Origin: Thermoleptolyngbya sichuanensis A183
GTDB lineage: Bacteria; Cyanobacteriota; Cyanobacteriia; Elainellales; Elainellaceae
Reading direction: 5' to 3'
DNA: 64,000 nt
Assembly (NCBI RefSeq): GCF_013177315.1
Contig: NZ_CP053661.1
Span: forward strand, 1,612,001 to 1,676,000
Part shown: in pieces, positions 2,933 to 64,000 of the stretch
How positions within the stretch are numbered: the first letter of the stretch is position 1
How the letters are laid out: each line of letters opens with the position of its first letter
The notes under the pieces: generated by a model
Told to the model about the DNA's origin: nothing
Seen by the model: the letters and a program-made list of their open reading frames with translations, nothing else
Database searches by the model: none
Translations under genes and position numbers: made by a program

Positions 2933-3195
2933 CCTCCCCCCTGAGAACTGTAAACCTCCAAGTCCCAAAGCTTTACATTGGGTAAACATTTGCAGCATCG
3001 TGCTTGGGGCTACAGTTTGCCCGCACCGCCTGCCAAAGAATTGGTAGATCAGTAGATCAGAACTTGTGACTAAAGGCTGTTCTGGGCTGTTTTCGAGACT
3101 GGTTTTTGAGTTTGTTTTTCGAGACGTTGGAACGCAGCGGGCGATCGCCTGTTCAGGCATAAACCATCAACCCTTGCGTCCCGCTGACAGAGCGT

Positions 3196-4920: not shown

Positions 4921-5009
4921 GAAAGCGGGGATGATGGGATGATGGGAGGTTGAGAAGCCCCCTCATCTCTGGTTTATCCCGTCTCTGGTTCATCCTGTCT
5001 CTGGTTAAA

Positions 5010-7511
5010 ATGCCTTTCCCCCTCACCGACCCCGCCTGGATCGAAACCCGCGATTTCCTGAAGCAACACGCCCGCGAACTCGATGCCATCCTTGCGCCAA
5101 ACGAGTTCATGGAGTTCTTTCCGGGCAACTATCACTACAACATCACCTACCTGCTGCCGCCGTCCCACTTTGACTATGTGGTGATACACAAGGGCATGGT
5201 GGCGGAAATCGAGCCGCCCTTTGCGCTGGAGGTGCTGCGGACGTTTCAGCCGCTCTTTGCAAACGCCGTGTTTGTGGTGTTTGCCAAACAGCCGCCGGAA
5301 AACGCGCCCAAAGCAGCAGGGGTGCATCTCCAGCCCTTGCTGAACCAGCTTGCGGTGGTGGAGGCGCAGCAGCGGGGCAAGGTAAAGCCGATTCGCTATG
5401 GCGTGACGATTACCACCTACAACCGACCGGAGAGCCTGGGGCGATCGCTCCCGCAGATCCGCCAGTTGGGTGCGCCCGTGGTGATTGTGGACGATGCCTC
5501 CAGTCCCGAAAACGCCGCCGCCAACCAGCGCATCGCCGACGAACACGGCGTTCCCCTCATCCGCATTCCCGAAAATCGCGGCCTGCCCAACGCCATGAAC
5601 GTCGGCATCGGCTACTGGCTAGCCGACCCCGCCATCGACTGGATTTCCTACTTCCAGGACGATGTGGACGTGCATCCCGACCTGTTCAAGATTCTGGAGA
5701 AAATCCAAGATCCCGTGGAGCGGCCGATTCTGGCGGGGCGTGACGCGCTGGAGCATCCCACCTTTGCCAAAGGCAGCATCGCGGGTTACGAGGTGTTGTT
5801 CAAGCGCTCTATGCCAGGGCAACACCTGCACGCCCACCGGGACTATTGGGCCGGGGTCATGCCCATTCCTACGCCGTATCTGGGCGCACCCAAGCCGACG
5901 GGCGGCAAGCCGGGCCAGGGCGCAGACGAAGACTGGTGGATTACTGCCTGGTCGCCCCATGCCATTCCCAAGCGGGGCAAGTACCTGATCTGCGTACCCG
6001 GACTGGTGCGAAGCTTCCAGATTACGGAGCAGGGGTCTACCTGGGGCAACATCAGCGAGCGGCAGGAAGACGGGCAGCCGATAATAGATGCGGCGCTGAA
6101 GGAACTGGCGGTGCCCGCAGTAGCCAAGGCGGATTCAGTGGAACGGGTGGAGCGCGATTCGCGAAGCGATCCCTGCGGGAATCGCCCTCCAGATCCGCCC
6201 CTAGCCGAACCCGTCCTCGCCGGCCTGAAAGTTCTCGTTGATGGATATAACCTGCAACTGACCACGGGCACGGGCATCCGCACCTACGCGGTGAACCTGA
6301 TTCGGGCGCTGACGGTGCTGGGGGCGGATGTGGACGTGCTGCTCAGCCGCAACAGCAACAAAAAAGACCCGATTTTGGACGAGGTGCTGTTCTTTGACGA
6401 GCAGGACGTGGGCGGGCGCAAACTGGTAGAAAACCTGATGCTGGTCAAAGACCTGCTGAAATCTTCTGTGCCGTCGCTCTATCGGGCGTGGCGGCGGGAA
6501 GCGGTGGGCGAGGTGGTGCTAAAGCAGGGCAAGTTTACCGAAGATTTCATTCAGCTTGCCCGGTCGTACAATTTGCCGAAGTGCTATAGCGTCGCCAATG
6601 CGGCGTTTAACCTGTTTGGACGGTCTACTCAGGTGACGATTCCCGAAAAAATCGACCTGTGGCACGCCACGTTTCCTCTGCCCGTCAGCATTCCCGGCGC
6701 AAAGAAAGTCACCACGATTCACGACCTGATTCCGCTGCGCCTGCCCTATACGACGCTGGACAACAAGAAGGATTTCTATAACAAGGTGAAGCGATCGCTC
6801 AAGGATTCCACCTTGACCATTGCTGTGTCGGAACACACCAAAAAAGATGTGCTGTCTTACTTTGATGCCGACCCCGACAAGATCGTCGTCACCTACCAGC
6901 CCGTGAATATCAAGCCGCTAGACGCAACGCCGGAGGAAATCGGCGACTTCCTGAAGCGCTATCGGCTGGGCTATCAGAACTATCTGCTGTTTGTGGGGGC
7001 GATCGAACCCAAGAAGAACGTCGGGCGCTTGCTGGAGGCCTATGCCGCGCTGGAAACTGACCTGCCGCTGGTCATCGTCGGCAAAAAGGCCTGGTCCTTT
7101 GAGGACGACCTGGGGCGACTGGATTACCTGTTTGACCCCGGCACAAAGCAGGACGTGCGCCTGCTGGAATATGTCCCCGGCGATGCCCTGCGCTATCTGT
7201 ATCAGGGGGCGTACTGTTTCGTTTTTCCGTCGCTCTACGAAGGCTTTGGGCTGCCGCCGATCGAGGCGATGACGATGGGCTGTCCGGTGGTCACGTCGAG
7301 CGCGTCCTGCCTGCCAGAGGTCTGCGGCCCGGCGGCGCTATACGTGAATCCCTACGATGTGGCAGATATTCAGGCCAAGCTGGAGCAAATTTTGGGCGAT
7401 CGCCCCCTGCGCGACCAGCTTGCCGAAACCGGAAAACAGGTTGCCCAGAACTTTAGCCTGAAGAACTACCTGAATCGACTCAGCGCCGCCTACCTGAGGG
7501 CGATCGGCTAA
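5010..7511 (+). CDS. Bifunctional glycosyltransferase, GT2 plus GT4 fusion
   Basis: An 833-residue protein from the ATG at 5010; upstream in-frame TTG sites are not convincing. After about 110 residues of unassigned sequence comes a GT2 (GT-A) domain starting YGVTITTYNRP near residue 130, with VIVDDAS and the metal-site-like FQDDVDVHPD near 217. A GT4 (GT-B) domain starts VLVDGYNL near 406, with TTIHDLIPLR, LFVGAIEPKKN and the donor-site motif EGFGLPPIEAM near 744. It probably adds two sugars in polysaccharide or glycolipid synthesis. No export or sugar-nucleotide genes are adjacent, so the product is unknown. The linker holds an in-frame dispersed mini-repeat (see 6154-6187). Confidence 0.88.
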   Translation: MPFPLTDPAWIETRDFLKQHARELDAILAPNEFMEFFPGNYHYNITYLLPPSHFDYVVIHKGMVAEIEPPFALEVLRTFQPLFANAVFVVFAKQPPENAPKAAGVHLQPLLNQLAVVEAQQRGKVKPIRYGVTITTYNRPESLGRSLPQIRQLGAPVVIVDDASSPENAAANQRIADEHGVPLIRIPENRGLPNAMNVGIGYWLADPAIDWISYFQDDVDVHPDLFKILEKIQDPVERPILAGRDALEHPTFAKGSIAGYEVLFKRSMPGQHLHAHRDYWAGVMPIPTPYLGAPKPTGGKPGQGADEDWWITAWSPHAIPKRGKYLICVPGLVRSFQITEQGSTWGNISERQEDGQPIIDAALKELAVPAVAKADSVERVERDSRSDPCGNRPPDPPLAEPVLAGLKVLVDGYNLQLTTGTGIRTYAVNLIRALTVLGADVDVLLSRNSNKKDPILDEVLFFDEQDVGGRKLVENLMLVKDLLKSSVPSLYRAWRREAVGEVVLKQGKFTEDFIQLARSYNLPKCYSVANAAFNLFGRSTQVTIPEKIDLWHATFPLPVSIPGAKKVTTIHDLIPLRLPYTTLDNKKDFYNKVKRSLKDSTLTIAVSEHTKKDVLSYFDADPDKIVVTYQPVNIKPLDATPEEIGDFLKRYRLGYQNYLLFVGAIEPKKNVGRLLEAYAALETDLPLVIVGKKAWSFEDDLGRLDYLFDPGTKQDVRLLEYVPGDALRYLYQGAYCFVFPSLYEGFGLPPIEAMTMGCPVVTSSASCLPEVCGPAALYVNPYDVADIQAKLEQILGDRPLRDQLAETGKQVAQNFSLKNYLNRLSAAYLRAIG
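6154..6187. repeat. In-frame dispersed mini-repeat, copy 1
   Basis: A HIP1-related interspersed repeat with inverted ends GCGATTC and GAATCGC around GCGAAGCGATCCCTGCG. It encodes roughly DSRSDPCGNRP between the GT2 and GT4 domains without breaking the frame. A close copy lies at 43797-43830 inside ftsI, read in the opposite orientation relative to that gene. Confidence 0.75.
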
Positions 7512-12837: not shown

Positions 12838-13603
12838 CCTCCTGACCTCCTCTCTCTCTAGGAATAGATGTAACTGTAGTTACAAAAAACTAAACCGTCG
12901 CCAGTATAGTGTCCTGGTCTCAAAATTTCAACTTCTTTTAACCTACCGACATAAAATCTTAGGGATGTCGGCTTAGAAGCCTCGATATTTCGCAGGATTG
13001 CTTAATTTATCTGCGGCGAGGCTTAATATTTCGTTATACTCTGCCACCCGTCCAAGGCACTATAAACTTGCCGAAGCCCTGCTCAGGCCTGGCTGTTTGT
13101 CATCTGTCTGATGGTACAGGTGCTTGGCACAGTCCCTGAGCAGATGCCTCCTTAAGATCCATCTAGAAGATCCAGCCAGATCCAGCCTTCTTGATCCAAC
13201 GTGTAAGCAAAGCCACTTGAGCGCATCCCAGTTCTGCAAGTTTGCCCTCATCCCCCAACCCCTTCTTCCAACAAGGGAGAAGGAAAGCCGGATTGGAAGT
13301 CCCTCTCTGGAGTTGTATGACTACCCTTGACAAAATTCCGTGACAGGGATTTGGGGTGAGGGTTATAACAGTGGGATCACCGAGCCAATTTGTTGATCGT
13401 GTGCTTGCATGTAAGTCAATTGGCAAGGCACTCCTAGAGCCTGCTCTACCCCGTTTTTAATCCGTCTGACGCTCATATCGCTTCTATAATGAGTGGCTAA
13501 TGGGGATCGAGCATCTGCAATCCCTTTTGAAACTGCATATCGCATTTCCTTGAGGGGTAAGGTACACACCACCCTAGAAAAGTTAGAGTTTTGTGCCCCT
13601 CTC
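12838..13603. other. Long non-coding spacer
   Basis: About 770 bp without a convincing gene. The left part is A+T-rich promoter-like DNA for the DUF3155 gene. A dispersed CCCTCATCCCC/GGGGTGAGGG repeat sits at 13244-13364. A 69-codon minus-strand frame at 13363-13572 overlaps it and was not accepted. Confidence 0.55.
13244..13364. repeat. Dispersed MITE-like repeat with CCCTCATCCCC ends
   Basis: Left end CCCTCATCCCCCAACCCC, right end TTTGGGGTGAGGG; the ends are inverted copies and the interior carries CTTCTTCCAACAAGGGAGAAG, also an inverted repeat. This matches a widespread cyanobacterial intergenic repeat pattern. Confidence 0.65.
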
Positions 13604-13767
13604 AGAGGGTGTTTGAAAAGGTATCGCCTGTAATGTTAAGCACTCAGAGATCCCCCCTAGCCCCCCTTGTTAAGGGGGGAAACCGCCTTAAAGTCCCCCT
13701 TTTTAAGGAGATTTAGGCGGATCTTGCACGCTTTGCTACAAACAGTAGGACTTTTCAAACATCCTCT
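13604..13767. mobile_element. MITE family A, copy 1
   Basis: A 164-bp element with terminal inverted repeats GAGGGTGTTTGAAAAGG and CTTTTCAAACATCCTC. The interior holds AGCACTCAGAGATCCCCC, a C/G-run hairpin and ATCTTGCACGCTTTGCTACA. A near-identical element is at 21214-21377. It carries no gene; it ends about 30 bp before the histidine kinase start and so forms its upstream region. Confidence 0.85.
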
Positions 13768-16397: not shown

Positions 16398-16488
16398 CAG
16401 ACTTACGCATTTGCGATAGGTTTTCTGGGTTTTGGACGATTTCTCGCGGGCTGCGCCCACGAGAAATCGCCCAACTGCGTAAGTCCTA
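16398..16488. mobile_element. Hairpin MITE family C, copy 1
   Basis: A 91-bp element with ends ACTTACGCA and TGCGTAAGTCCTA and a long internal hairpin, CGATTTCTCGCGGGC against GCCCACGAGAAATCG. Further copies are at 32022-32112 (degenerate) and 61219-62180 (split by an IS630 element). Confidence 0.8.
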
Positions 16489-16523
16489 TTTGGATTTGCG
16501 ATTTTGGATTTGCGATTTTGGAT
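16489..16523. repeat. Short tandem repeat, 14-bp unit
   Basis: Two and a half units of TTTGGATTTGCGAT. Related arrays at 35721-35768 and, more distantly, 33401-33446. Confidence 0.65.
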
Positions 16524-21034: not shown

Positions 21035-21213
21035 GCTTGATGCTCTATTTTGATTCGAGTTTGATTTGAGTAGGCGAAGCAGTTTAGCCCTCGCAAAAGT
21101 GTTTCTAGAGAAGGCATGGTTGTCGTGAAGTAAGCGCGCGCCATGCCTTCTTTTTCAAGCAGATTACGAATTGATTGAAAAGCCTCGAAAGAGGTCTTTT
21201 CTAAGGATTCTTA

Positions 21214-21377
21214 GAGGGTGTTTGAGGAGGTACTGCCTGTAATATTAAGCACTCAGAGATTCCCCCTAGCCCCACTTAACAAGGGGGGAAACTGCCTTAA
21301 AGTCTCCCTTTTTAAAGGAGAATTTAGGGGGATCTTGCACGCTTTGCTACAAACAGTAAGACTTTTCAAACATCCTC
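21214..21377. mobile_element. MITE family A, copy 2
   Basis: Same length and ends as the copy at 13604-13767 with only scattered differences. It lies between the permease and the porin gene. Confidence 0.85.
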
Positions 21378-21790
21378 TTAAATCCATCCCTGACTCTGAA
21401 AGGTTCTTTCAGCAAGTGTCTTGAACAACATTGGGATTGGGCTTTTCGTCAATTACTTTTGTCGATGCCTTGATCTGAAATCACGACGCAATTTAACGTT
21501 TCGGATTTGGATTAGTAAACCGGAATATTCTTTTGCAAATGTGACTCGGAATACAAATTCGAGATTCGGCTGAGATTAGCCTATATGAAATGTTTCTGGC
21601 TTGCTTGAAAGTTATATCTCTAAGTCTTCATGTCTCGATTTCTATTGGGTGTGGATATTTAGAAAAAATGCATTGCAAGGATACATGAAATGCTTTAAGT
21701 CCAACAGAAATGCATTAAGACGTACTTAATTTCTAGCAAGCTATCAGACCGTTCTCGACCGTTCATCGTGGTGCTTGAGGAGCTTTTGAA
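21378..21790. other. A+T-rich leader upstream of the porin gene
   Basis: About 410 bp, distinctly A+T-rich compared with the surrounding genes, with no gene. Expected to hold the porin promoter. A Shine-Dalgarno-like GAGGAG lies about 8 bp before the porin ATG. Confidence 0.5.
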
Positions 21791-22799
21791 ATGAGATTTG
21801 AGGTGTTTAGACCTCTGCTAGCGGCGTTGGTCGTGGCGGGGGCATTTGGAATGGATCACCGGGCGATCGCCAGCCCAGTTGCACCCTCCGAAGCTGAGAC
21901 GCAGCCCGCTCTGGATACCCCAGTTGCCGGTGCAGCCGTCGATTCCAGCCTGCCTATGCCAGACCTGGGAAGGGTAAGGTTGGCCGACGCAAATTTGGAC
22001 GCAACTTTGGATGCAAGTTTGGACACAGCTTTGTCTGAGCCGTCTCCAGTCGCCGATCTGGAGTCCGCCCCTGCAACGACTGACCTACTCGAAGTTTCAC
22101 CAGAGCTATCTCCAGAGGTAGAGCCGCTGGAGGCTCCTTCGACGCTGCCCCCCGAAATGGACGGCGCATCCAGTGCCGCAGACCTGTCGGCCTCAGAGAT
22201 CACCAGCGAGGCGATCGCCATCCCAGTAGACATGCTACTGAGCGGTACACTGCCAGTGGATGTCAGCCCTGCGATGGCGCAGGTCACCTCAGTTCAGCAG
22301 TTTTCCGATGTACAGCCGAGCGACTGGGCCTACGAAGCCCTGGCCTACTTGGCAAACTCTGAGGCAGAAGGTGGACTAGATTGCTTGGAAGGCTACCCTG
22401 ACGGCACGTTTCGAGGCGGCCGCGCCATGACTCGTTATGAATTTGCTGCGGGTCTGGCCTCTTGCCTGGATGCGGTCGTGGGCCGGCTCGACTCCCTCGA
22501 CCCAGAAGCCCTGGCACGAATCGAAGCCCTCCAGCGAGAGTTTGCCGCAGAATTGGCTGTGCTGCGGGGTCGGGTAGACGCGCTGGAGGAAGCCGTTGCC
22601 GCACTCGAAGCCAACCAGTTTTCAACCACCACCGTTCTGCGCGGCAATGCCTGGATGAACCTGACCCAGGCATTCCCCGATGGCCGCATTTTGACAGAGC
22701 GCAACCCCTTCGCGCCCAACGCCTTTGCGCCGCCCATTCGAGATGCCAACGGTCGCCCCAGCCGCGTTTTCCGCGACCAGCCCCAACTCACCTTCAGCT

Positions 22800-24316
22800 A
22801 CTTTAGTTTGGACTAACTGGCATCACAATAATGCTCAACAGGATGCCATAAAGAATCTGCTCAACCGTTCATAACAGTTGAACTTAAGGAATTGGATACA
22901 ATCCTGCTCGCAGTTAAGCTGCTGTTGCAACCGGACTGTTCAGGGATTGTTCGGATGTCTTGCGTTTCGAGGCTCGTTTTTTGACCATCGGATAGCAGGG
23001 ACGAGGAGTTGGCTTGTGCCCCTTGCCTCGTCCTGGCGATTTACCACGAGGTTTAGGCGCAGGAGCAGGGGTGCCAATCGCTGCCAAAATGCCTGCAACC
23101 GCTTGTGCGACCCGACCCGGAGTCAACGTTTCTTGCGGTGCCTGCCAGGGCAAGGGGTGGTCAGTACAGTCCTTTCGCGCTAACCACAACTGCCAACTGA
23201 GCAACGGCATCAGGCTGCTCCACTGTTCGGTTGCCGATACAGAACTGAACTGGGGATGTGTCCAATAGAGCCTCTGCTTGGCAAAGCGATACCAGTGTTC
23301 AATGGCAAAGCGACGGAGGTAGTGCAACCACAGGGTTTCTAACGGAGGCATCTGCTCACCCAGCCAAACTAACCACAAAGGAGCCAAGCGTCGCGTGCTG
23401 CTCTGTGTCTCCAGCACCTCCACGCGCAACACTTCCATTGCCCGTTTGGGGGATTTGCGGAAATGGTATGCACTCCAACGACTGACCCGCACTCGTCCCC
23501 AGTTGGGATCATCGACTTCAACGGTTTCGACCGGGACACTCCAAGTGTCAGGGTCATTGAGTTTCATCTTATGTCCATGCTTGGCAGGTGCGCCTCGCCC
23601 TCGATCCGCTGGGGGCGCGCCATAGACACATCGATTGGATGTAACCCGCAGCAGCAAGTCTGCCTCAATCCCTGCCGTTTGGTTGACAAAACTGGCATTG
23701 CCGTACCCTCGGTCGTAGATCGCCAACGGACGCACCGCTAACTGCCGAGTCACTTGTTTGAGTTGGAATGCCGCTTTACTGGCGGGTGTTTCAAAGCTGG
23801 TGATGCGCTCATGCCGCAATGGTAATGCCCAACTGCCCCTGTCTTCAGCAATCCAGGCTAAGGTACTGTAGTTTTGTCCGGCTATCGGGGCATGTCCTGT
23901 TCTGCCTGATAAGGTGCGGTCTTTCAAACGCCTGGCAGCAGAAGAGCACACGACTCGCATCACCTGCCAACAACGGTTGCTGCTGAGTCGGTATCTGCTG
24001 CACCAACAGCTTCAGCACCTTTGATCGGGGTAGGCGGCTATCGCGCAACGCTTCATAGGTGCTCGACCACTGGCGACGAAAGACAGGACTCTGCGATAGC
24101 CTCACAAACGACACGATGCACGCACTCACTAACACGGCATCCATCAGATCAAACAGGGCATCTCTGGCGTTTCCCAAGCTGGCATACAACGTTTGGCGAA
24201 ATTGCTGAAGTTCGTTGAAAATCATGGGGTCAATGTTGGTTGTACTTCATTGACCTTACGGCAGTCGGTGCTTCTCATTGACTGCCTTCCTCTTCACCAT
24301 TAGTCCAAACTAAAGT
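22800..24316 (-). mobile_element. IS copy 1 (IS701-like), 1517 bp, transposase frameshifted
   Basis: Ends ACTTTAGTTTGGACTAA and its inverse. Same element as the 1519-bp copies but 2 bp shorter. The loss falls inside the transposase gene. Confidence 0.9.
22914..24225 (-). pseudogene. IS701-like DDE transposase, frameshifted
   Basis: Compared with the intact 437-residue copies, reading breaks just after GDASR. The stretch encoding WNRP is replaced: GTGGAACCGTCC in intact copies reads TGTGCTCTTC here, a local substitution plus a 2-bp loss near 23945-23960. The first catalytic Asp remains in the 5' frame while the rest of the catalytic core (YDRGYGN, IEHWYRF) is in another frame (22914-23963). 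It should not give an active protein but its ends can be mobilised in trans. Confidence 0.9.
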
Positions 24317-24476: not shown

Positions 24477-25217
24477 ATGGGGCTGAATCTCTACGTCTTG
24501 TCTGAAAATTCTCCTGATAATCAACATGTAGGTTGGTCAGTCAGTCAGAATCTAGAAGAAGTTCTATCCAGTGTTTTTAAGCCTGTCTTTCTCTACCCCA
24601 CTCATAACCAGTCAATTCGGCTGGGTTCGCTGAAAGTTTCCGATCGCTATGTGTCTTTTACTCGACGATATCGGCATCGCCTGTTTCGCTCCTGGTATGA
24701 GTTAGAGCAGTTGCCCAGTTTGGATTCTGGGATAAATGTATTGCTTATTGTAGGGCTTGGGTCGCAGTTCCTACTGTCGATGCATACGCTCGGCCCTCTG
24801 CTGAAACGGTTTGATGTCAGAATTGGTTACCTGTTGGATGGGTTTAGCGCAAATCACCTCAATCCTGCCGCCATTTCTTGCCTGGACTATCTGTTTACAA
24901 TCAGTCAGGATATGGCTGATTCTGTGAGAGAGACGCACGGCATTAATGCGATGTACTTGCCGCTTGCGACAAATACGTTGAGGGTGGAACTCAATCGGCA
25001 GCATCGCTGGATTGATATCTTGAGCTATGGTCGGCGAAATGAAGCGATCCATCGACAGCTTCATGCGCGATTTGGAGGAGCAGAGAGCGATCGCTTTTAT
25101 TTGTATTCCACCTTTTCCAAGCCTGATCTGCTTGACCGAGGCGAGCATGTGATGCTCCATTCGAGGTTGCTCAATCATGCAAAAATCAGCCTTTGCTTTG
25201 ACTTTAGTTTGGACTAA
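24477..25217 (+). pseudogene. Glycosyltransferase-like gene, 3' end missing (transposon passenger)
   Basis: About 240 native residues from the ATG at 24477 (TTG at 24468 possible); the last residues (SLD and stop) come from the IS end. The sequence has SWYELEQLPSLDSGINVLLI, CLDYLFTISQDMADSVRE, YLPLATNT and a final SRLLNHAKISLCFDF, a layout like GT4/CgeB-type glycosyltransferases, where the C-terminal half would hold the donor site. That half is absent and not found elsewhere in the window. G+C looks lower than in the neighbouring host genes, consistent with foreign origin. Family assignment is moderate. Confidence 0.65.
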
Positions 25218-26719
25218 TGGTGAAGAGGAAGGCAGTCAATGAGAAGCACCGACTGCCGTAAGGTCAATGAAGTACAACCAACATTGACCCCATGATTTTC
25301 AACGAACTTCAGCAATTTCGCCAAACGTTGTATGCCAGCTTGGGAAACGCCAGAGATGCCCTGTTTGATCTGATGGATGCCGTGTTAGTGAGTGCGTGCA
25401 TCGTGTCGTTTGTGAGGCTATCGCAGAGTCCTGTCTTTCGTCGCCAGTGGTCGAGCACCTATGAAGCGTTGCGCGATAGCCGCCTACCCCGATCAAAGGT
25501 GCTGAAGCTGTTGGTGCAGCAGATACCGACTCAGCAGCAACCGTTGTTGGCAAGTGATGCGAGTCGGTGGAACCGTCCTGCTGCCAGGCGTTTGAAAGAC
25601 CGCACCTTATCAGGCAGAACAGGACATGCCCCGATAGCCGGACAAAACTACAGTACCTTAGCCTGGATTGCTGAAGACAGGGGCAGTTGGGCATTACCAT
25701 TGCGGCATGAGCGCATCACCAGCTTTGAAACACCCGCCAGTAAAGCGGCATTCCAACTCAAACAAGTGACTCGGCAGTTAGCGGTGCGTCCGTTGGCGAT
25801 CTACGACCGAGGGTACGGCAATGCCAGTTTTGTCAACCAAACGGCAGGGATTGAGGCAGACTTGCTGCTGCGGGTTACATCCAATCGATGTGTCTATGGC
25901 GCGCCCCCAGCGTATCGAGGGCGAGGCGCACCTGCCAAGCATGGACATAAGATGAAACTCAATGACCCTGACACTTGGAGTGTCCCGGTCGAAACCGTTG
26001 AAGTCGATGATCCCAACTGGGGACGAGTGCGGGTCAGTCGTTGGAGTGCATACCATTTCCGCAAATCCCCCAAACGGGCAATGGAAGTGTTGCGCGTGGA
26101 GGTGCTGGAGACACAGAGCAGCACGCGACGCTTGGCTCCTTTGTGGTTAGTTTGGCTGGGTGAGCAGATGCCTCCGTTAGAAACCCTGTGGTTGCACTAC
26201 CTCTGTCGCTTTGCCATTGAACACTGGTATCGCTTTGCCAAGCAGAGGCTATATTGGACACATCCCCAGTTCAGTTCTGTATCGGCAACCGAACAGTGGA
26301 GCAGCCTGATGCCGTTGCTCAGTTGGCAGTTGTGGTTAGCGCGAAAGGACTGTACTGACCACCCCTTGCCCTGGCAGGCACCGCAAGAAACGTTGACTCC
26401 GGGTCGGGTCGCACAAGCGTTTGCAGGCATTTTGGCAGCGATTGGCCCCCCTGCTCCTGCGCCTAAACCTCGTGGTAAATCGCCAGGACGAGGCAAGGGG
26501 CACAAGCCAACTCCTCGTCCCTGCTATCCGATGGTCAAAAAACGAGCCTCGAAACGCAAGACATCCGAACAATCCCTGAACAGTCCGGTTGCAACAGCAG
26601 CTTAACTGCGAGCAGGATTGTATCCAATTCCTTAAGTTCAACTGTTATGAACGGTTGAGCAGATTCTTTATGGCATCCTGTTGAGCATTATTGTGATGCC
26701 AGTTAGTCCAAACTAAAGT
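25201..26719 (+). mobile_element. IS copy 2 (IS701-like), 1519 bp
   Basis: Full-length element, inverted ends ACTTTAGTTTGGACTAA, transposase intact. Right-hand arm of the composite transposon; its left end cuts the passenger gene. Confidence 0.92.
25292..26605 (+). CDS. IS701-like DDE transposase, intact (variant)
   Basis: A 437-residue transposase. Catalytic residues by pattern: Asp in LASDASRWNRP, Asp in AIYDRGYGN and Glu in FAIEHWYRFAKQRLYW. The C-terminus is basic and proline-rich. It differs from copies 3 and 4 at three residues: Gly to Ser just before the first catalytic Asp, Arg to Cys four residues before the catalytic Glu (LCRFAIE) and Thr to Pro in IGPPAP. The first two lie close to the active site and could weaken it. 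Confidence 0.92.
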   Translation: MIFNELQQFRQTLYASLGNARDALFDLMDAVLVSACIVSFVRLSQSPVFRRQWSSTYEALRDSRLPRSKVLKLLVQQIPTQQQPLLASDASRWNRPAARRLKDRTLSGRTGHAPIAGQNYSTLAWIAEDRGSWALPLRHERITSFETPASKAAFQLKQVTRQLAVRPLAIYDRGYGNASFVNQTAGIEADLLLRVTSNRCVYGAPPAYRGRGAPAKHGHKMKLNDPDTWSVPVETVEVDDPNWGRVRVSRWSAYHFRKSPKRAMEVLRVEVLETQSSTRRLAPLWLVWLGEQMPPLETLWLHYLCRFAIEHWYRFAKQRLYWTHPQFSSVSATEQWSSLMPLLSWQLWLARKDCTDHPLPWQAPQETLTPGRVAQAFAGILAAIGPPAPAPKPRGKSPGRGKGHKPTPRPCYPMVKKRASKRKTSEQSLNSPVATAA

Positions 26720-30412: not shown

Positions 30413-30466
30413 CCTTAGAGCTAATTTGTAAAGGAGCCTGAAAGCTTTGTTAATCAAGGATTTCCG
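30411..30466. mobile_element. MITE family E, copy 2, truncated
   Basis: Fifty-odd bases matching, with about one mismatch, the inverse of the right end of the MITE at 62181-62320 (AGAGCTAATTTGTAAAGGAG onward). It ends abruptly where IS copy 3 starts; the remaining part is not found on the other side of the IS. Confidence 0.85.
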
Positions 30467-31985
30467 ACTTTAGTTTGGACTAATGGTGAAGAGGAAGGCA
30501 GTCAATGAGAAGCACCGACTGCCGTAAGGTCAATGAAGTACAACCAACATTGACCCCATGATTTTCAACGAACTTCAGCAATTTCGCCAAACGTTGTATG
30601 CCAGCTTGGGAAACGCCAGAGATGCCCTGTTTGATCTGATGGATGCCGTGTTAGTGAGTGCGTGCATCGTGTCGTTTGTGAGGCTATCGCAGAGTCCTGT
30701 CTTTCGTCGCCAGTGGTCGAGCACCTATGAAGCGTTGCGCGATAGCCGCCTACCCCGATCAAAGGTGCTGAAGCTGTTGGTGCAGCAGATACCGACTCAG
30801 CAGCAACCGTTGTTGGCAGGTGATGCGAGTCGGTGGAACCGTCCTGCTGCCAGGCGTTTGAAAGACCGCACCTTATCAGGCAGAACAGGACATGCCCCGA
30901 TAGCCGGACAAAACTACAGTACCTTAGCCTGGATTGCTGAAGACAGGGGCAGTTGGGCATTACCATTGCGGCATGAGCGCATCACCAGCTTTGAAACACC
31001 CGCCAGTAAAGCGGCATTCCAACTCAAACAAGTGACTCGGCAGTTAGCGGTGCGTCCGTTGGCGATCTACGACCGAGGGTACGGCAATGCCAGTTTTGTC
31101 AACCAAACGGCAGGGATTGAGGCAGACTTGCTGCTGCGGGTTACATCCAATCGATGTGTCTATGGCGCGCCCCCAGCGTATCGAGGGCGAGGCGCACCTG
31201 CCAAGCATGGACATAAGATGAAACTCAATGACCCTGACACTTGGAGTGTCCCGGTCGAAACCGTTGAAGTCGATGATCCCAACTGGGGACGAGTGCGGGT
31301 CAGTCGTTGGAGTGCATACCATTTCCGCAAATCCCCCAAACGGGCAATGGAAGTGTTGCGCGTGGAGGTGCTGGAGACACAGAGCAGCACGCGACGCTTG
31401 GCTCCTTTGTGGTTAGTTTGGCTGGGTGAGCAGATGCCTCCGTTAGAAACCCTGTGGTTGCACTACCTCCGTCGCTTTGCCATTGAACACTGGTATCGCT
31501 TTGCCAAGCAGAGGCTATATTGGACACATCCCCAGTTCAGTTCTGTATCGGCAACCGAACAGTGGAGCAGCCTGATGCCGTTGCTCAGTTGGCAGTTGTG
31601 GTTAGCGCGAAAGGACTGTACTGACCACCCCTTGCCCTGGCAGGCACCGCAAGAAACGTTGACTCCGGGTCGGGTCGCACAAGCGTTTGCAGGCATTTTG
31701 GCAGCGATTGGCACCCCTGCTCCTGCGCCTAAACCTCGTGGTAAATCGCCAGGACGAGGCAAGGGGCACAAGCCAACTCCTCGTCCCTGCTATCCGATGG
31801 TCAAAAAACGAGCCTCGAAACGCAAGACATCCGAACAATCCCTGAACAGTCCGGTTGCAACAGCAGCTTAACTGCGAGCAGGATTGTATCCAATTCCTTA
31901 AGTTCAACTGTTATGAACGGTTGAGCAGATTCTTTATGGCATCCTGTTGAGCATTATTGTGATGCCAGTTAGTCCAAACTAAAGT
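30467..31985 (+). mobile_element. IS copy 3 (IS701-like), 1519 bp
   Basis: Full length with intact inverted ends. The flanks (left ...TTCCG, right TCAAA...) show no target duplication, and the MITE it entered is missing on its right side, implying a deletion or recombination at this copy. Confidence 0.92.
30558..31871 (+). CDS. IS701-like DDE transposase, intact
   Basis: 437 residues, predicted protein identical to that of copy 4 and therefore the best guess for the active form. First catalytic Asp in AGDASRWNRP, second in AIYDRGYGN, Glu in FAIEHWYRF. Confidence 0.94.
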   Translation: MIFNELQQFRQTLYASLGNARDALFDLMDAVLVSACIVSFVRLSQSPVFRRQWSSTYEALRDSRLPRSKVLKLLVQQIPTQQQPLLAGDASRWNRPAARRLKDRTLSGRTGHAPIAGQNYSTLAWIAEDRGSWALPLRHERITSFETPASKAAFQLKQVTRQLAVRPLAIYDRGYGNASFVNQTAGIEADLLLRVTSNRCVYGAPPAYRGRGAPAKHGHKMKLNDPDTWSVPVETVEVDDPNWGRVRVSRWSAYHFRKSPKRAMEVLRVEVLETQSSTRRLAPLWLVWLGEQMPPLETLWLHYLRRFAIEHWYRFAKQRLYWTHPQFSSVSATEQWSSLMPLLSWQLWLARKDCTDHPLPWQAPQETLTPGRVAQAFAGILAAIGTPAPAPKPRGKSPGRGKGHKPTPRPCYPMVKKRASKRKTSEQSLNSPVATAA

Positions 31986-41749: not shown

Positions 41750-44044
41750 CTACTGCTCCACGACCGTCGTATCCGGAGCCTTGCTGGGAGAAATCAGGTC
41801 AATGCGGATCAGCGCTTCCATCACGTCGCGGGCGATGGGCGCGGCAACGGTGGAGCCGTAGGCATTGTCGCCCTGGGGTTCATCGATGACCACCAGCACC
41901 GCATAGCGGGGAGCCTCAACCGGAAACAGGCTGACGAAGCTGGTGATTCGGGCAACGTTGTCGTAGCCGCCCGTGGCGCTGGCTTTTTGAGCCGTCCCCG
42001 TTTTGCCAGCAATGCGATAGCCAGGAATTTGGGCGGGCGTGCCTGTGCCTTCTTCGACGGCCTTTTCCATCATGCCCAGCACGGCCTGCGCCGTTTCACG
42101 CGAGAAAACCTGCTTGGGCGGCGCGTATTGGGGCTGCCAGTGGAGCTTGCCGCTGCTGTCAAAGAGGCCTTCGACGACGTGGGGCGTGACCAGGAAACCG
42201 CCGTTGGCGATCGCCCCTTGCAGCCGCAGCAGTTGCACCGGGGTCAGGCTAAAGCCTTGCCCAAAAGCAGTCACTGCCACCTCCACCGGATCGCCTAGGA
42301 ACTGATCCCGTTTTTTCACCTGGCCGGCTGTTTCAAACGGCAGATCGATCCCCGTGGGCTTGGCCAGTTCGATCTTTGCCAGCCAGTCGTAATAAATCTC
42401 TGGCTTCAGCGTTTGCATGATTCGCACCATGCCGACGTTGCTAGAGTGGGCGACGATTTCCCCGACGGTTTGGGAACCCCGCGCCGCGCCGTCGCTGTTC
42501 TGAATCGGCCAAGGGCCGATGTAGATTCGCCCTTCGTCATAGAAGCTGTCGTTGGGGCGGACGGTGCCGGCTTCTAGGGCGATCGCCACGTTGATTGGCT
42601 TGAAGGTTGAACCCGGCTCGTAGGGATCGGTCAGCAGCCAGTTGCGGAGCTGATCCATCGGGTAGGTGTAGTACTGGTTGGGGTCAAAGGATGGCTCTAT
42701 TGCCATCACTCGCAGCGCCCCCGTCTGTACCTCCATCACTAGCACCGCGCCCCGCTTTGCGCTAAACTCAGCCATTTTTTGTTTAAGCGCTTTGCGAGCA
42801 GCTTGCTGGAGCCGTCGATCAACCGTGATTTTTAGCCGCAGGTCGTCCTGTTTCAGCATATAGTTGGGAATTTCGCCAGGCTTAACGAGATCCTGTCCGC
42901 GGCGCAAAAAGCGAGCCACTTGGTTCGACCGCTCCAGGGCCGCCCGCTGGGTATACTCCACACCCGCCTGCGCTTCTCGATCTAGATTGACATAGCCCAC
43001 TACCTCCGCCAGTAGGTCTTGCTGCGGGTAGAAGCGCTGCTGTCGGGGAAGCAGTTCTAGCCCGTCCAGCCGCAGGGCCCGAATCCGGTCGGCGGCATCT
43101 TCCGAGAGTCCGAAGGTAACCTCGATGCCGCTGTCCTGCTCGTCGAACAGATTAGCCAAATCTACCGAGGACTGGTTGAGGATGGGGGCGATCGCCTCGG
43201 CCACCTCATCCTTGGACTTTTTGAACAGCTTGGGATGGGCGTAGAGCATGTAAACCAGCCGATCCACCGCCAGCGACGTACCCTGATGATCGACAATTGG
43301 GCGGCGCGGCAAAATCGGCTGCAACCTCACCGTCTGCTGAGCTTGGGCGCGGCTGGACAAGACATCTGCCTGAAGCACCTGCAAGCGAAACAGATTGGCC
43401 GTCAGCCCGATTGCGCCAAGGGTCAACACGCCCCACACCAATAGCATCCGCGCCGCTGAGGGATGGCTGGCGGGATCGACCCGATGCAGACGCACAGACT
43501 TCGACGCTGGGCGAACCGCCGATCGAGGGGCTGTCTGCCGTTTCCCCCGCTGGGGGCGCGATCCCGACGGGTTCACACGGGGTTGGGGGAATCGAGCAGA
43601 ACGGCCCGGACTTGCTGGACCAGGTGTTCTCTGACGGGGCGATCGCCCCTGGGACGCACCCCCCAGAGATGCACCCCCCAGAGATGCGCCTGCCAGAGAT
43701 GGGCCCGCCAGCGATGCACGCCGCAACGGCCGCTGAGGCGATACGACTGAACGGGCCGTCCGCTGGGCAGCAGACCGAGTTGCCCCTTGTCCGGGAGATT
43801 TGCGAAGCGATCCCTGTGGGAATCGCCCCTCGCCCAGATCATGGAGAACCTGCCAGGCTGCGTTCAGCGATCGCCCCCACTGTCGCAGCAGGCGGCGGAC
43901 AGAGACGGCAGGAGAACGACGGGGCGGATTGGTAGCTGGTCGTCCCGTCGTCTTTGCAGGTTTACTTGCAGGACTAGAAGAACGCTTACCAGCCGCACGC
44001 TGGGATCGTCGAAGACCAGAGGGTGGGGGAACCGATTGGGTCAT
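41750..44044 (-). CDS. ftsI: Penicillin-binding protein FtsI (division transpeptidase)
   Basis: A 764-residue class B PBP that cross-links septal peptidoglycan. After a very long basic, serine/proline-rich cytoplasmic segment (about 210 residues; usual length is 20-50) comes a membrane helix (LLVWGVLTLGAIGLTANLF), the PBP dimer domain and the transpeptidase domain with STFK, SSN (AHSSNVGMV) and KTGT (IAGKTGTAQK). The cytoplasmic segment carries pentapeptide-like SLAGA/SLGGA repeats and the in-frame mini-repeat (43797-43830). ATG at 44044 (MTQSVPPPSG); a longer frame to 44131 is less likely. Follows the FtsL-like gene. Confidence 0.93.
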   Translation of the reverse strand: MTQSVPPPSGLRRSQRAAGKRSSSPASKPAKTTGRPATNPPRRSPAVSVRRLLRQWGRSLNAAWQVLHDLGEGRFPQGSLRKSPGQGATRSAAQRTARSVVSPQRPLRRASLAGPSLAGASLGGASLGGASQGRSPRQRTPGPASPGRSARFPQPRVNPSGSRPQRGKRQTAPRSAVRPASKSVRLHRVDPASHPSAARMLLVWGVLTLGAIGLTANLFRLQVLQADVLSSRAQAQQTVRLQPILPRRPIVDHQGTSLAVDRLVYMLYAHPKLFKKSKDEVAEAIAPILNQSSVDLANLFDEQDSGIEVTFGLSEDAADRIRALRLDGLELLPRQQRFYPQQDLLAEVVGYVNLDREAQAGVEYTQRAALERSNQVARFLRRGQDLVKPGEIPNYMLKQDDLRLKITVDRRLQQAARKALKQKMAEFSAKRGAVLVMEVQTGALRVMAIEPSFDPNQYYTYPMDQLRNWLLTDPYEPGSTFKPINVAIALEAGTVRPNDSFYDEGRIYIGPWPIQNSDGAARGSQTVGEIVAHSSNVGMVRIMQTLKPEIYYDWLAKIELAKPTGIDLPFETAGQVKKRDQFLGDPVEVAVTAFGQGFSLTPVQLLRLQGAIANGGFLVTPHVVEGLFDSSGKLHWQPQYAPPKQVFSRETAQAVLGMMEKAVEEGTGTPAQIPGYRIAGKTGTAQKASATGGYDNVARITSFVSLFPVEAPRYAVLVVIDEPQGDNAYGSTVAAPIARDVMEALIRIDLISPSKAPDTTVVEQ
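43797..43830. repeat. In-frame dispersed mini-repeat, copy 2
   Basis: TGCGAAGCGATCCCTGTGGG then AATCGCCC; near-identical to 6154-6187. On the ftsI coding strand it reads GRFPQGSLRKSP. It keeps the frame. Confidence 0.75.
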
Positions 44045-44188
44045 GACAATGCCAAAAAATACTGAGCCAAAAAATACTGACAAAACACTGAAAATGAAAA
44101 TGCCCTGTTGGGACGGGAAGCCAGATTGCATCAGCCTGAGTCTGTCCAGCGATCCCGCGCCAACCCAAGTCGCCTTGGCTCATATCGG

Positions 44189-50262: not shown

Positions 50263-50904
50263 TCCTGCCGTGCAGCCTGATTTTCTGCAAAATTGACCAG
50301 AAAATTGGCGAGATTGGCCTCGTTTTCTCCGGATAGGCTGCCCTGAACTCTGAAGCTATAGGTAGATGCACCCTGATTGAACCCTCCGGCTTCGGCCGGG
50401 GGTTTCTTTCTTTTTATGAGGTTTTTGTAGGGTTTTTACAGGATTTTTGCAGGATTTTTGTGGACGTTCCGGTGGCAATTTGCGGTGTTCAAGTAGCAGA
50501 TTTCAAGGCAAATTTCAGAACATGAAAAAAGGCTGACCCAATGAGCCAGCCCCTACCATGTTTGATGACGTTGTCTTTTTAGCTTGGAGAAAACCCGAAC
50601 TGCGCGTTCCCAATTCGTGCAGAAGGGCGTGAGAATACAGCCGGAAACATTCCGAGCAGTCTGCCCTGAAATAAGCTATCCCAAACAGGCTATCTCAAAA
50701 CAGGCACGGAATATTTCGCTTTCCTCCCTATAGGAGATTGTAACAAGAGACACAGCAATTTTGTTATAAAACTTTACGCCAATCCCTGCCTTTAGACATA
50801 ACCCTACTTAATCAATGGACGAGTGAATCGGTGAGAAGCCGGTTTGTAAGGGCGATCGCCCTCTCCAAAGCGCTTCTCCAGGCTTAAGCCCTGTGAACAA
50901 AGTT
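50263..50904. other. Non-coding region between M23 gene and IS copy 4
   Basis: About 640 bp containing the terminator at 50379-50418 and an inverted repeat (GGCTGACCC/AGCCAGCC, 50531-50551). The rest is A+T-rich without a gene. Confidence 0.55.
50379..50418 (+). terminator. Rho-independent terminator after the M23 gene
   Basis: AACCCTCCGGC, a TTCG tetraloop and GCCGGGGGTTT, followed by CTTTCTTTTT. Textbook form, about 115 bp after the stop. Confidence 0.9.
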
Positions 50905-52423
50905 TCTTTAGTTTGGACTAATGGTGAAGAGGAAGGCAGTCAATGAGAAGCACCGACTGCCGTAAGGTCAATGAAGTACAACCAACATTGACCCCATGAT
51001 TTTCAACGAACTTCAGCAATTTCGCCAAACGTTGTATGCCAGCTTGGGAAACGCCAGAGATGCCCTGTTTGATCTGATGGATGCCGTGTTAGTGAGTGCG
51101 TGCATCGTGTCGTTTGTGAGGCTATCGCAGAGTCCTGTCTTTCGTCGCCAGTGGTCGAGCACCTATGAAGCGTTGCGCGATAGCCGCCTACCCCGATCAA
51201 AGGTGCTGAAGCTGTTGGTGCAGCAGATACCGACTCAGCAGCAACCGTTGTTGGCAGGTGATGCGAGTCGGTGGAACCGTCCTGCTGCCAGGCGTTTGAA
51301 AGACCGCACCTTATCAGGCAGAACAGGACATGCCCCGATAGCCGGACAAAACTACAGTACCTTAGCCTGGATTGCTGAAGACAGGGGCAGTTGGGCATTA
51401 CCATTGCGGCATGAGCGCATCACCAGCTTTGAAACACCCGCCAGTAAAGCGGCATTCCAACTCAAACAAGTGACTCGGCAGTTAGCGGTGCGTCCGTTGG
51501 CGATCTACGACCGAGGGTACGGCAATGCCAGTTTTGTCAACCAAACGGCAGGGATTGAGGCAGACTTGCTGCTGCGGGTTACATCCAATCGATGTGTCTA
51601 TGGCGCGCCCCCAGCGTATCGAGGGCGAGGCGCACCTGCCAAGCATGGACATAAGATGAAACTCAATGACCCTGACACTTGGAGTGTCCCGGTCGAAACC
51701 GTTGAAGTCGATGATCCCAACTGGGGACGAGTGCGGGTCAGTCGTTGGAGTGCATACCATTTCCGCAAATCCCCCAAACGGGCAATGGAAGTGTTGCGCG
51801 TGGAGGTGCTGGAGACACAGAGCAGCACGCGACGCTTGGCTCCTTTGTGGTTAGTTTGGCTGGGTGAGCAGATGCCTCCGTTAGAAACCCTGTGGTTGCA
51901 CTACCTCCGTCGCTTTGCCATTGAACACTGGTATCGCTTTGCCAAGCAGAGGCTATATTGGACACATCCCCAGTTCAGTTCTGTATCGGCAACCGAACAG
52001 TGGAGCAGCCTGATGCCGTTGCTCAGTTGGCAGTTGTGGTTAGCGCGAAAGGACTGTACTGACCACCCCTTGCCCTGGCAGGCACCGCAAGAAACGTTGA
52101 CTCCGGGTCGGGTCGCACAAGCGTTTGCAGGCATTTTGGCAGCGATTGGCACCCCTGCTCCTGCGCCTAAACCTCGTGGTAAATCGCCAGGACGAGGCAA
52201 GGGGCACAAGCCAACTCCTCGTCCCTGCTATCCGATGGTCAAAAAACGAGCCTCGAAACGCAAGACATCCGAACAATCCCTGAACAGTCCGGTTGCAACA
52301 GCAGCTTAACTGCGAGCAGGATTGTATCCAATTCCTTAAGTTCAACTGTTATGAACGGTTGAGCAGATTCTTTATGGCATCCTGTTGAGCATTATTGTGA
52401 TGCCAGTTAGTCCAAACTAAAGT
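50905..52423 (+). mobile_element. IS copy 4 (IS701-like), 1519 bp
   Basis: Full length; its left outermost base differs from the other copies (TCTTTAG rather than ACTTTAG). It ends about 50 bp before the 52471 gene and may have replaced that gene's upstream region. Confidence 0.92.
50996..52309 (+). CDS. IS701-like DDE transposase, intact
   Basis: 437 residues, identical prediction to that of copy 3, with all three catalytic residues (AGDAS, YDRGYGN, IEHWYRF). Identity of the two proteins suggests recent transposition. Confidence 0.94.
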   Translation: MIFNELQQFRQTLYASLGNARDALFDLMDAVLVSACIVSFVRLSQSPVFRRQWSSTYEALRDSRLPRSKVLKLLVQQIPTQQQPLLAGDASRWNRPAARRLKDRTLSGRTGHAPIAGQNYSTLAWIAEDRGSWALPLRHERITSFETPASKAAFQLKQVTRQLAVRPLAIYDRGYGNASFVNQTAGIEADLLLRVTSNRCVYGAPPAYRGRGAPAKHGHKMKLNDPDTWSVPVETVEVDDPNWGRVRVSRWSAYHFRKSPKRAMEVLRVEVLETQSSTRRLAPLWLVWLGEQMPPLETLWLHYLRRFAIEHWYRFAKQRLYWTHPQFSSVSATEQWSSLMPLLSWQLWLARKDCTDHPLPWQAPQETLTPGRVAQAFAGILAAIGTPAPAPKPRGKSPGRGKGHKPTPRPCYPMVKKRASKRKTSEQSLNSPVATAA

Positions 52424-52470
52424 TTGAACGTTGAGATGAAAATGGATTTGGCAATGTCTGTACAGCTTCT

Positions 52471-60959: not shown

Positions 60960-61218
60960 AGGGGTTTGGGTATCAGGGTTTAGAGGTTAGGAGCTAGGAC
61001 AGGATATTAAGGTTTTTGGGTAACGGAGTGATAGATTCAGGCGGAATGAGGAAGGATTTAGATTTATCTTCCTCATGTCTGTTCCTCCTTAAAACTAATT
61101 CAATCGATTCGTCGGAATCTTTTCAATCTTTTCATCAGACTACGACTCCAATACTCCAAAATATTCCAACATCCCGCTACACTTCATCTCGACATCACAA
61201 TTATTCAGAACAGATTAT
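60960..61218. other. moeB upstream region
   Basis: About 260 bp of A+T-rich DNA before the repeat cluster. No gene seen. Confidence 0.5.
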
Positions 61219-61305
61219 AGGACTTACACAGTTGGACGATTTCTCGCGGGCGCAGCCCGCGAGAAATCGTCCAAAACCCAGAAAACTTAATCGCAAGTGC
61301 GTAAG

Positions 61306-62170
61306 TACTCTGTAAATTAAGTATCTGACGGTTTTACTCCCACTGGTGCAGGTCGAATGTTGTCGTAGTGACGACTAAGTTTGCTCCTGGCAGTTTCAGC
61401 TAGACGGTTTCCCGTTCAGGGTTTAATTGCCGCTAACAAGGCACAAGAGCCATTTTTTTCATAACTGTAGTGTTCTTTGTAGACATGACCCGCTTGCATC
61501 AGCAACGGGGCAACCACCTCACCGATGAGGAAACAGGGACGCTCATCGAAGCAGACTACCGGGTAGGCAGGGTCATAAGGTTGGGCGTACAACCAAAGGA
61601 TCTGTTCCATTTGAGCAATAAAGCGGCTATCCAATTGACCCAGACACCACGTCTGCTTGAGGTGAGGCTTCAACTCGTTTTTTTGAAAATCTTCGCGACT
61701 TGCGTATGTGAAATACTCTAGCAATAGTTCAGTTCAACCGCCTTATCCGCCAGCAGACGCAAGTCCCAGCGGTCATGACCGACTGGGGCTTCACTACAGG
61801 CTAAAGCCGTAATATTGGCTCGTTGCTCACCATCAAACTCGATTGGACGACCCGAGCGGGGCTTGTCATGCAGCATCTGCAATCCTTCCTGTTCATAGCG
61901 CTCGCGCCATGCCTGCACCGTCGTCTCTGAGACACTTAAGGTCATCGCAACGGCACTTACGGGTTTGCCTCGGTCAAGTTCCAGTAAACCAGTTGCCTGC
62001 TTAAACTGCCGGGCTCCCAGTTGACCCTTACGCAACAAATTCTTTAGGTAATCGCGGTCGGTTGGACGCAGTTCGACTTGGCACTTTTTCATCTCTACTC
62101 AACTAACAATAGGACTGTGAACAGTCTACTACTCACTCGCTTGAGTCCAAAAAACTTAATTTACAGAGTA
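61306..62170 (-). mobile_element. IS630-family remnant, about 865 bp
   Basis: Perfect 16-bp inverted ends, TACTCTGTAAATTAAG and its inverse. GTAAG flanks both sides; as IS630 elements duplicate TA, the true duplication may be the TA within it. The transposase is broken and shortened, so the element is a relic though its ends are intact. Confidence 0.88.
61416..62092 (-). pseudogene. IS630 transposase, interrupted and 3'-truncated
   Basis: The N-terminal frame (62092-61718) gives an HTH region (GKPVSAVAMTLSVSETTVQAW). It ends in a stop right after ELNYC, where SISHTQVAKIF continues in the same frame; then an A7 run near 61685 shifts to the frame of NELKPHLKQTWCLGQ. The first DDE Asp is present (CFDERPCFL), but the sequence ends after CALLAAIKP, before the second and third catalytic residues. 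Nonsense change, frameshift and deletion together show decay. Confidence 0.88.
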
Positions 62171-63720: not shown

Positions 63721-63761
63721 TTCAGACTAAAGTTCACCCTCAGGTTCGCCTGCCTCTATTT

Positions 63762-64000
63762 ACTTTAGTTTGGACTAACTGGCATCACAATAATGCTCAA
63801 CAGGATGCCATAAAGAATCTGCTCAACCGTTCATAACAGTTGAACTTAAGGAATTGGATACAATCCTGCTCGCAGTTAAGCTGCTGTTGCAACCGGACTG
63901 TTCAGGGATTGTTCGGATGTCTTGCGTTTCGAGGCTCGTTTTTTGACCATCGGATAGCAGGGACGAGGAGTTGGCTTGTGCCCCTTGCCTCGTCCTGGCG
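63762..64000 (-). mobile_element. IS copy 5 (IS701-like), cut by window edge
   Basis: Begins with ACTTTAGTTTGGACTAAC and matches the 3' end of the other copies base for base as far as visible. The transposase C-terminus (stop at 63876-63878) reads to the right edge. Confidence 0.92.
63876..64000 (-). CDS. IS701-like transposase, C-terminal part only
   Basis: The last about 40 codons of the transposase, ending LNSPVATAA; the remainder lies beyond the window. Whether it is intact cannot be judged. Confidence 0.9.
   Translation of the reverse strand, partial: PGRGKGHKPTPRPCYPMVKKRASKRKTSEQSLNSPVATAA

Follow-up and report, generated by a model that had tools for sequence, protein, structure and literature searches.

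The genome of the hot-spring cyanobacterium Thermoleptolyngbya sichuanensis A183 is dotted with copies of a 32-nt repeat, which consists of the octamer HIP1 (GCGATCGC), a word strongly over-represented in many cyanobacterial genomes, interrupted by exactly 24 bp. This is very probably an SDR5-type mobile repeat. Its double mini-hairpin of 24 bp is inserted at a fixed point of HIP1, is dispersed, and preserves the reading frame of the genes that it enters. The window analysed here is a stretch of 64,000 nucleotides (positions 1612001-1676000 of the single 5,525,100-base A183 contig). The genome is described as one circular chromosome of 5,525,100 bases (PMC8461337). An earlier note on this DNA had pointed to two near-identical repeats in the window, and both are real, being copies of one 32-nt sequence at 6154-6185 and 43795-43826; the start of the first had been placed correctly, and the second, given as 43797-43830, was shifted by 2 and slightly long. 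Its description of the repeat as palindromic and HIP1-related is borne out by the octamer split by two mini-hairpins.

The consensus can be written as GCGAT + TCGC GAA GCGA + TCCC TRC GGGA + ATCGC. Between the HIP1 halves GCGAT and ATCGC lie two adjacent 11-nt mini-hairpins with loops of three bases each, such that insertion, at a constant position within the octamer and in either orientation, converts GCGATCGC into GCGAT-22 nt-ATCGC. The length is nearly invariant: the pattern GCGATTCN{4,34}GAATCGC was found at 59 places, and at 47 of the 50 listed the repeat measured 32 nt. Spacings between GCGAT and ATCGC peak at 22 (81 cases, with 7 and 5 at spacings 21 and 23), and the count at 22 falls to 6 when the known copies are removed. 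No second insert length was evident in the 504,921 fetched bases except a peak at spacing 10, which vanishes once the known copies are removed. Scanning the window and a 50-kb Fischerella plasmid for double hairpins of any sequence within a split HIP1 gave scattered matches and nothing usable (reversed controls, 3 and 0; one sequence was repeated in an IS-like copy).

Copy 1 (6154..6185, + strand; GCGATTCGCGAAGCGATCCCTGCGGGAATCGC) is identical to the consensus and represents a net insertion of 24 bp, or eight amino acids (SRSDPCGN). Its left and right HIP1 halves, GCGAT (6154..6158) and ATCGC (6181..6185), are defined by sequence and by comparison with the empty site. Hairpin 1 (TCGC-GAA-GCGA, 6159..6169) is backed by other genomes, in which columns 9:13 have changed together from CG to TA, and hairpin 2 (TCCC-TGC-GGGA, 6170..6180) by compensatory changes in the column pairs 19:25 and 20:24. 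The host gene (4950..7511, + strand) encodes a two-domain GT2-GT4 glycosyltransferase. Numbered from a start at 5010, the copy corresponds to residues 382-392, in the linker between the domains; Pfam places GT2 at residues 132-235 and GT4 above the cut-off from residue 545, with a sub-threshold match from 421. The protein reads ERD-SRSDPCGN-RPP in A183 vs ERDRPP in the congener, the DNA being GAG CGC GAT CGC CCC (E R D R P) in the congener and ERDSRSDPCGNRP in A183; the orthologous empty site is thus an intact GCGATCGC.

Copy 2 (43795..43826, + strand) has three mismatches and lies antisense to its host gene, an FtsI/PBP ORF (41750..44131, - strand), in the N-terminal region. It retains hairpin 1 as TTGC-GAA-GCGA with one G.T wobble (43800..43810) and hairpin 2 as TCCC-TGT-GGGA (43811..43821). 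As had been proposed, both copies are in frame and leave their genes unbroken: the peptide ERDSRSDPCGNRPP is present in the translation of the + strand ORF 4950-7511 and GRFPQGSLRKSP in that of the - strand ORF 41750-44131. By eye, the surroundings of copy 2 are a basic, low-complexity region. The true start of FtsI is likely to be 44044, where the predicted sequence MTQSVPPPSG resembles MSTGVPPSSG of a family relative; copy 2 would then precede a single hydrophobic segment. Were the first ATG (44131) used, another hydrophobic stretch would come before the copy (both topologies judged by eye). Our dicodon gene caller classed this N-terminal part as non-coding because it trimmed the low-complexity region; given the resemblance between the upstream start region and its counterpart in the relative, we believe copy 2 to be coding. 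The congener contig starts past this region and the other orthologues are unalignable there by eye, so that, of the two protein additions originally proposed, the eight residues at the glycosyltransferase site are observed and an insertion at the FtsI site in particular is inferred.

Further pairs of filled and empty sites were sought by querying the congener with the flanks of 64 A183 copies, and A183 with the flanks of 22 congener copies. One locus per site was aligned, additional matches to a site already represented were dropped along with low-complexity or repeat matches, and pairs whose 60-nt flanks were at least 60% identical on both sides were considered well aligned. The A183 copies yielded 34 aligned pairs, 21 of them well aligned; 13 of these differ by exactly 24 nt, six are of equal length, and the remaining two have nets of 27 and -3. 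The 13 empty alleles carry an exact HIP1 in 11 cases, one mismatch in one and two mismatches in another. From the congener copies came 18 aligned pairs, 15 well aligned, comprising five differences of exactly 24, six equal lengths, and nets of 25, 3, 19 and -15; all five exact-24 empty alleles are exact HIP1. Combined, an exact 24-nt difference occurs in 18 of 36 well-aligned comparisons, in which two shared sites were counted from both sides, and HIP1 is intact in 16 of the 18 empty alleles, with a single mismatch in one more, compared to 3.4% of random 24-nt windows. The misfits to the fixed length among well-aligned sites are the six nets of 27, 25, 19, 3, -3 and -15. At the equal-length site 1303505 no clear copy is seen in the congener. 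The mobility suggested in the earlier note is demonstrated, site by site, by these exact presence/absence pairs.

Taken alone, two congeners give no polarity, and the same pairs could have arisen if the element were ancestral and had been lost by precise excisions restoring HIP1; a hairpin-forming insert could conceivably be removed by slippage. Against such deletions, each congener holds copies absent from the other, and a search of 34 further family genomes at ≤3 mismatches found no copy. Conservation of the residues in distant orthologues, named at the outset as a sign of descent, is not seen for the glycosyltransferase: among 21 same-family genomes searched, 11 had both domains in one match and could be aligned, and the insert residues occur in none of them, nor in the congener. 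Because of the 34 genomes and the 11 orthologues, gain appears the likelier direction, and we consider ancestral presence with excision very unlikely.

A search for variants throughout the A183 genome, as the earlier note had advised, detected 77 copies when up to 3 mismatches were allowed (43 and 34 on the two strands); the pattern read backwards gave 0 matches at the same threshold. A covariance model (E≤0.001) returned 127 matches, seven of which duplicate another match on the opposite strand, leaving about 120 copies. In 353,491 fetched bases, which had been chosen around copies, 93 copies were found at ≤9 mismatches; reversing these bases gave 0 even at ≤10. Six copies are identical over all 32 nt. 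The element is made of HIP1-like pieces (GCGA, ATCGC), and might in principle represent local expansion or slippage of HIP1-like sequence, independent at each site and involving no dispersed module. This explanation is already contradicted by the shared core, for the same 24 nt recur; the identical copies, the nearly fixed length and the identical sequence in distant cyanobacteria also speak against it, and it must be viewed as extremely improbable.

Within the class, the repeat is present in 24 of 388 sampled genomes, A183 and the congener included, and in six of 160 genera; outside these two, no sampled genome has more than 11 copies. An exact scan of named genomes matched Tildeniella torsiva, J069, a Leptolyngbya MAG, the filamentous cyanobacterium CCT1 and one pond MAG. 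Viral spread was rejected as an explanation, as neither IMG/VR contigs (searched with a degenerate pattern) nor phage records gave a match. A plasmid of Planktothrix agardhii carries one copy in an annotated methylase; in a protein comparison with the Fischerella and Chroococcidiopsis homologues, this enzyme has eight extra residues immediately ahead of the NPPY motif. In the Geoalkalibacter homologue the gap is placed differently and covers ten columns. On this protein alignment, we count the Planktothrix methylase as a probable independent case of an eight-residue insertion. Other weak plasmid matches (E 0.2 to 9), nearly all outside the cyanobacteria, were treated as chance. A Cylindrospermopsis plasmid matched the repeat at E 0.7.

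Variation among copies supports the double hairpin. The most variable column is loop position 22, which differs in 44 of 93 copies, and stem changes affecting both sides of a pair restore pairing in 6/6 cells among 77 distinct A183 copies and in 9/9 among 67 distinct sequences from other genomes. The changes CGCGAAGCG -> CGTGAAACG and CCCTGCGGG -> CCGTCCCGG preserve the double hairpin; the CGTGAAACG form was seen in two genomes belonging to a single genus. CCGNNCCGG forms are most frequent in a different genus and also occur in A183. Relative to shuffles, the other genomes have an excess of double changes in both hairpins, and the A183 copies have one in hairpin 2; hairpin 1 shows no such excess in the A183 copies (1 vs 1.6 shuffled), and its pair 6:14 is C.A in 12 of the 77 distinct copies. 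For a set of 38 distinct sequences, partly picked for diversity, ten double-changed cells were counted vs 1.7 in shuffles that ignore kinship among copies (0/500 as high), and sliding the pairing by 1-3 columns gave at most six. The number of pairs changed on both sides in this set (3 vs 1.4) was not significant (63/500). Free folding of the consensus, as DNA and RNA alike, prefers one long hairpin. Maintenance of the hairpin pairing is supported statistically.

Eleven copies common to both congeners, picked by hand (2329500 and 4459654 from outside the well-aligned equal-length rows, 1303505 omitted), differ at 25 of 286 stem positions (8.7%) and 16 of 66 loop positions (24%). Five pairs have changed on both sides vs 1.09 expected (Poisson p=0.005); three were re-paired and two, both in the outer HIP1 stem, were not. 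Two of the re-paired sites, 2557016 and 1986838, are in called CDS, where the double changes alter two residues each (P-S and G-R; P-L and R-Q; codons read by eye). Either the hairpin is still under selection at these sites, or the copies have been overwritten by other members of the family. The low stem divergence, and compensation at the cost of amino acids, would also be expected if the copies were functional nucleic-acid hairpins, such as signals for mRNA stability or recombination, that selection maintains and whose mobility is incidental or long past. Their presence in both orientations, in coding and non-coding DNA and in varied gene classes, speaks against such a role, as do the exact 24-nt absences in half of the well-aligned comparisons; we think it unlikely.

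The distribution over genes and frames, which the earlier note had proposed to tally, was obtained for 125 copies using a dicodon gene caller whose training set was the long ORFs in the fetched stretches. One hundred copies (80%) are in called CDSs and 25 outside, vs 883 coding and 141 non-coding HIP1 octamers in the same stretches (86%; p=0.08). Genes are, on these counts, not specially targeted, but are hit roughly in proportion to the HIP1 sites that they contain. Since 24 is a multiple of three and the consensus is free of stops in all six reading frames, an insertion adds eight residues in frame. We do not press the six-frame openness as evidence: 64 of the 125 individual copies lack stops in every frame, and chance alone frequently leaves a short GC-rich word open.

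All six classes of frame and orientation occur among the copies in CDSs, with counts of 18/31/5/16/17/13 vs 24.5/15.9/9.6/24.5/15.9/9.6 expected from the phases of HIP1 in CDSs (chi-square p=0.0004). The same-strand frame giving the hydrophilic peptide (G)DSRSDPxGNR is found twice as often as expected (31 vs 15.9), and the pair of frames that begin with A-I is underrepresented (34 vs 48.9). This bias points to selection on the peptide: a filter at the protein level favouring the D-S-R-S-D-P-x-G-N frame and disfavouring the A-I frames is supported statistically, as a post hoc result on our own gene caller. Disordered linkers, the setting proposed for the two window copies, are not the rule, since inserts are found inside domains as well as between them. 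Pfam was run on 40 of 59 listed host proteins, and in 15 of the 35 with matches at least one insert falls within a domain envelope (tallied by hand from the tables). The domains concerned include GAF, HisKA, class I methyltransferase, hydantoinase A, the ATP-grasp domain of PurK, PfkB, peptidase C39 and peptidase U32, and the inserts presumably occupy surface loops.

Elhai is said to have described, in 2008, families of small dispersed repeats of 21-27 nt, among which SDR4, SDR5 and SDR6 reportedly share a predicted secondary structure, with RNA intermediates suggested. At 24 nt the A183 repeat fits this size range, and it fits the compensated secondary structure as well, more weakly for hairpin 1 within A183. 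The host differs, the A183 lineage being thermophilic; it is also non-heterocystous. SDR5 of Nostoc and relatives is characterized as a very small repeat inserted precisely inside HIP1 (PMC4390886), which is equally true of the A183 repeat, the likeness being one of description. The Rickettsia palindromic elements are described as palindromes of 105-146 bp whose reading frames are open and which became part, in frame, of conserved protein genes (PMC2229807). The A183 repeat shares their in-frame presence in conserved protein genes; unlike them, it is cyanobacterial, only 24 bp long, has a consensus open in six frames, and targets HIP1, where that account of the Rickettsia elements gives no fixed target octamer. 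By analogy, the A183 repeat appears to work like SDR5, and in its behaviour towards proteins like the Rickettsia elements. MITEs such as Correia, ERIC and Nezha are non-autonomous and dispersed, some being fused to ORFs, and are given as about 70-300 bp with terminal inverted repeats of the transposase type (PMC2229807, PMC3733652); the A183 repeat is also dispersed and ORF-fused, but its insert is only 24 bp. The 20-nt core of the repeat did not occur in the open-licence papers searched, and no title or abstract found in the open-licence literature describes in-frame HIP1 repeats.

REPs and the GTAG- and CGTC-tagged palindromes are reported as hairpin-forming sequences of 20-40 bp in high copy number (PMC3733652), and the A183 repeat is similarly short, hairpin-forming and abundant. 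It could accordingly be imagined as a REP/RAYT-type element that moves through single-stranded DNA under the action of a Y1 tyrosine transposase, as is thought for REPs, and A183 does possess one Y1 (RAYT-like) ORF (426653-426988). However, the 3.3-kb locus around this gene contains no copy (best match, 12/32 mismatches), and no Y1 match was obtained in the congener, whose assembly is 85% complete; being unlinked in the one genome and missing from the other assembly, Y1 is not a good candidate and was rejected as a partner. Terminal GTAG or CGTC tags are also lacking: a TAC-loop variant spells GTAG on the other strand, but in the loop. Unlike REPs, the copies are mostly intragenic and no linked RAYT was found, and their orientation does not switch with replichore along the chromosome (two-breakpoint test, 89 copies, p=0.64). 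We regard a REP/RAYT-type origin as quite unlikely.

How the SDR5-type repeat spreads can be suggested tentatively, at somewhat less than even confidence. A folded single-stranded intermediate, either RNA or ssDNA, with ends matching HIP1, might enter a HIP1 site that is broken or nicked, by copying or joining, through machinery probably acting in trans. Directed cutting at HIP1 has been suggested as a partial explanation of SDR5 insertion (Elhai 2015, PMC4390886), and would by analogy fit the A183 repeat likewise.

A bolder reading, about which we are more doubtful still, is that of a self-spreading 24-bp module which uses HIP1 as its landing pad and is built for tolerated landing in genes, by virtue of its length of 24, its stop-free consensus and the hydrophilic character of the favoured frame. 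It would perhaps be the smallest mobile element to give recurrent in-frame peptide loops, and would be under hairpin selection within host genes despite the resulting amino acid changes. A precise insertion process with clean filled and empty pairs is now tied to HIP1. The copies also constitute a countable natural experiment on the tolerance of proteins to eight-residue insertions, by frame, domain and survival, and a concrete test case for how an element with no room for a gene of its own can spread.

The HIP1-inserted repeat, a double mini-hairpin that measures 32 nt with its flanking HIP1 halves, is found three times within a single called gene at four places in the A183 genome (G000, contig C1), namely G000:C1:470648-472733, G000:C1:1307617-1308289, G000:C1:3439098-3442290, and G000:C1:3557263-3559786. 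The N-terminal region of FtsI, where copy 2 of this repeat resides, also carries a tandem repeat of a 15-bp unit (4.3 copies; window 43656-43719), which lies approximately 75 bp from copy 2.

A solitary RAYT-like Y1 transposase ORF is located at G000:C1:426653-426988, with a 292-aa open frame. The HIP1-inserted repeat was not found in the 3.3-kb locus surrounding this ORF (L231).

The window contains four copies, 99-100% identical, of an IS-like repeat of approximately 1.52 kb (22796-24316, 25200-26719, 30466-31985, and 50906-52424), and a fifth (63761-64000) that is truncated by the window end. A total of 186 ISs has been reported for A183 (PMC8461337). Rfam NsiR1, nitrogen stress-induced RNA 1, has a match at window 50360-50410 (+ strand; 47.3 bits against a gathering score of 39), and an IS-like copy lies approximately 0.5 kb away from it. 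An inverted pair of approximately 90 bp (window 16401-16489 and 61217-61306; 93% identity) is possibly another small repeat, and window segments 13600-13767 and 21209-21378 share 90% identity.

A lone copy of the HIP1-inserted repeat, with one mismatch to the consensus, is present on Planktothrix agardhii plasmid p1 (L228; NZ_LR882935.1) at 3001-3032. It lies in frame within a methylase, directly ahead of the NPPY motif, and the methylase gene that bears it adjoins a gene for a XamI-family endonuclease.
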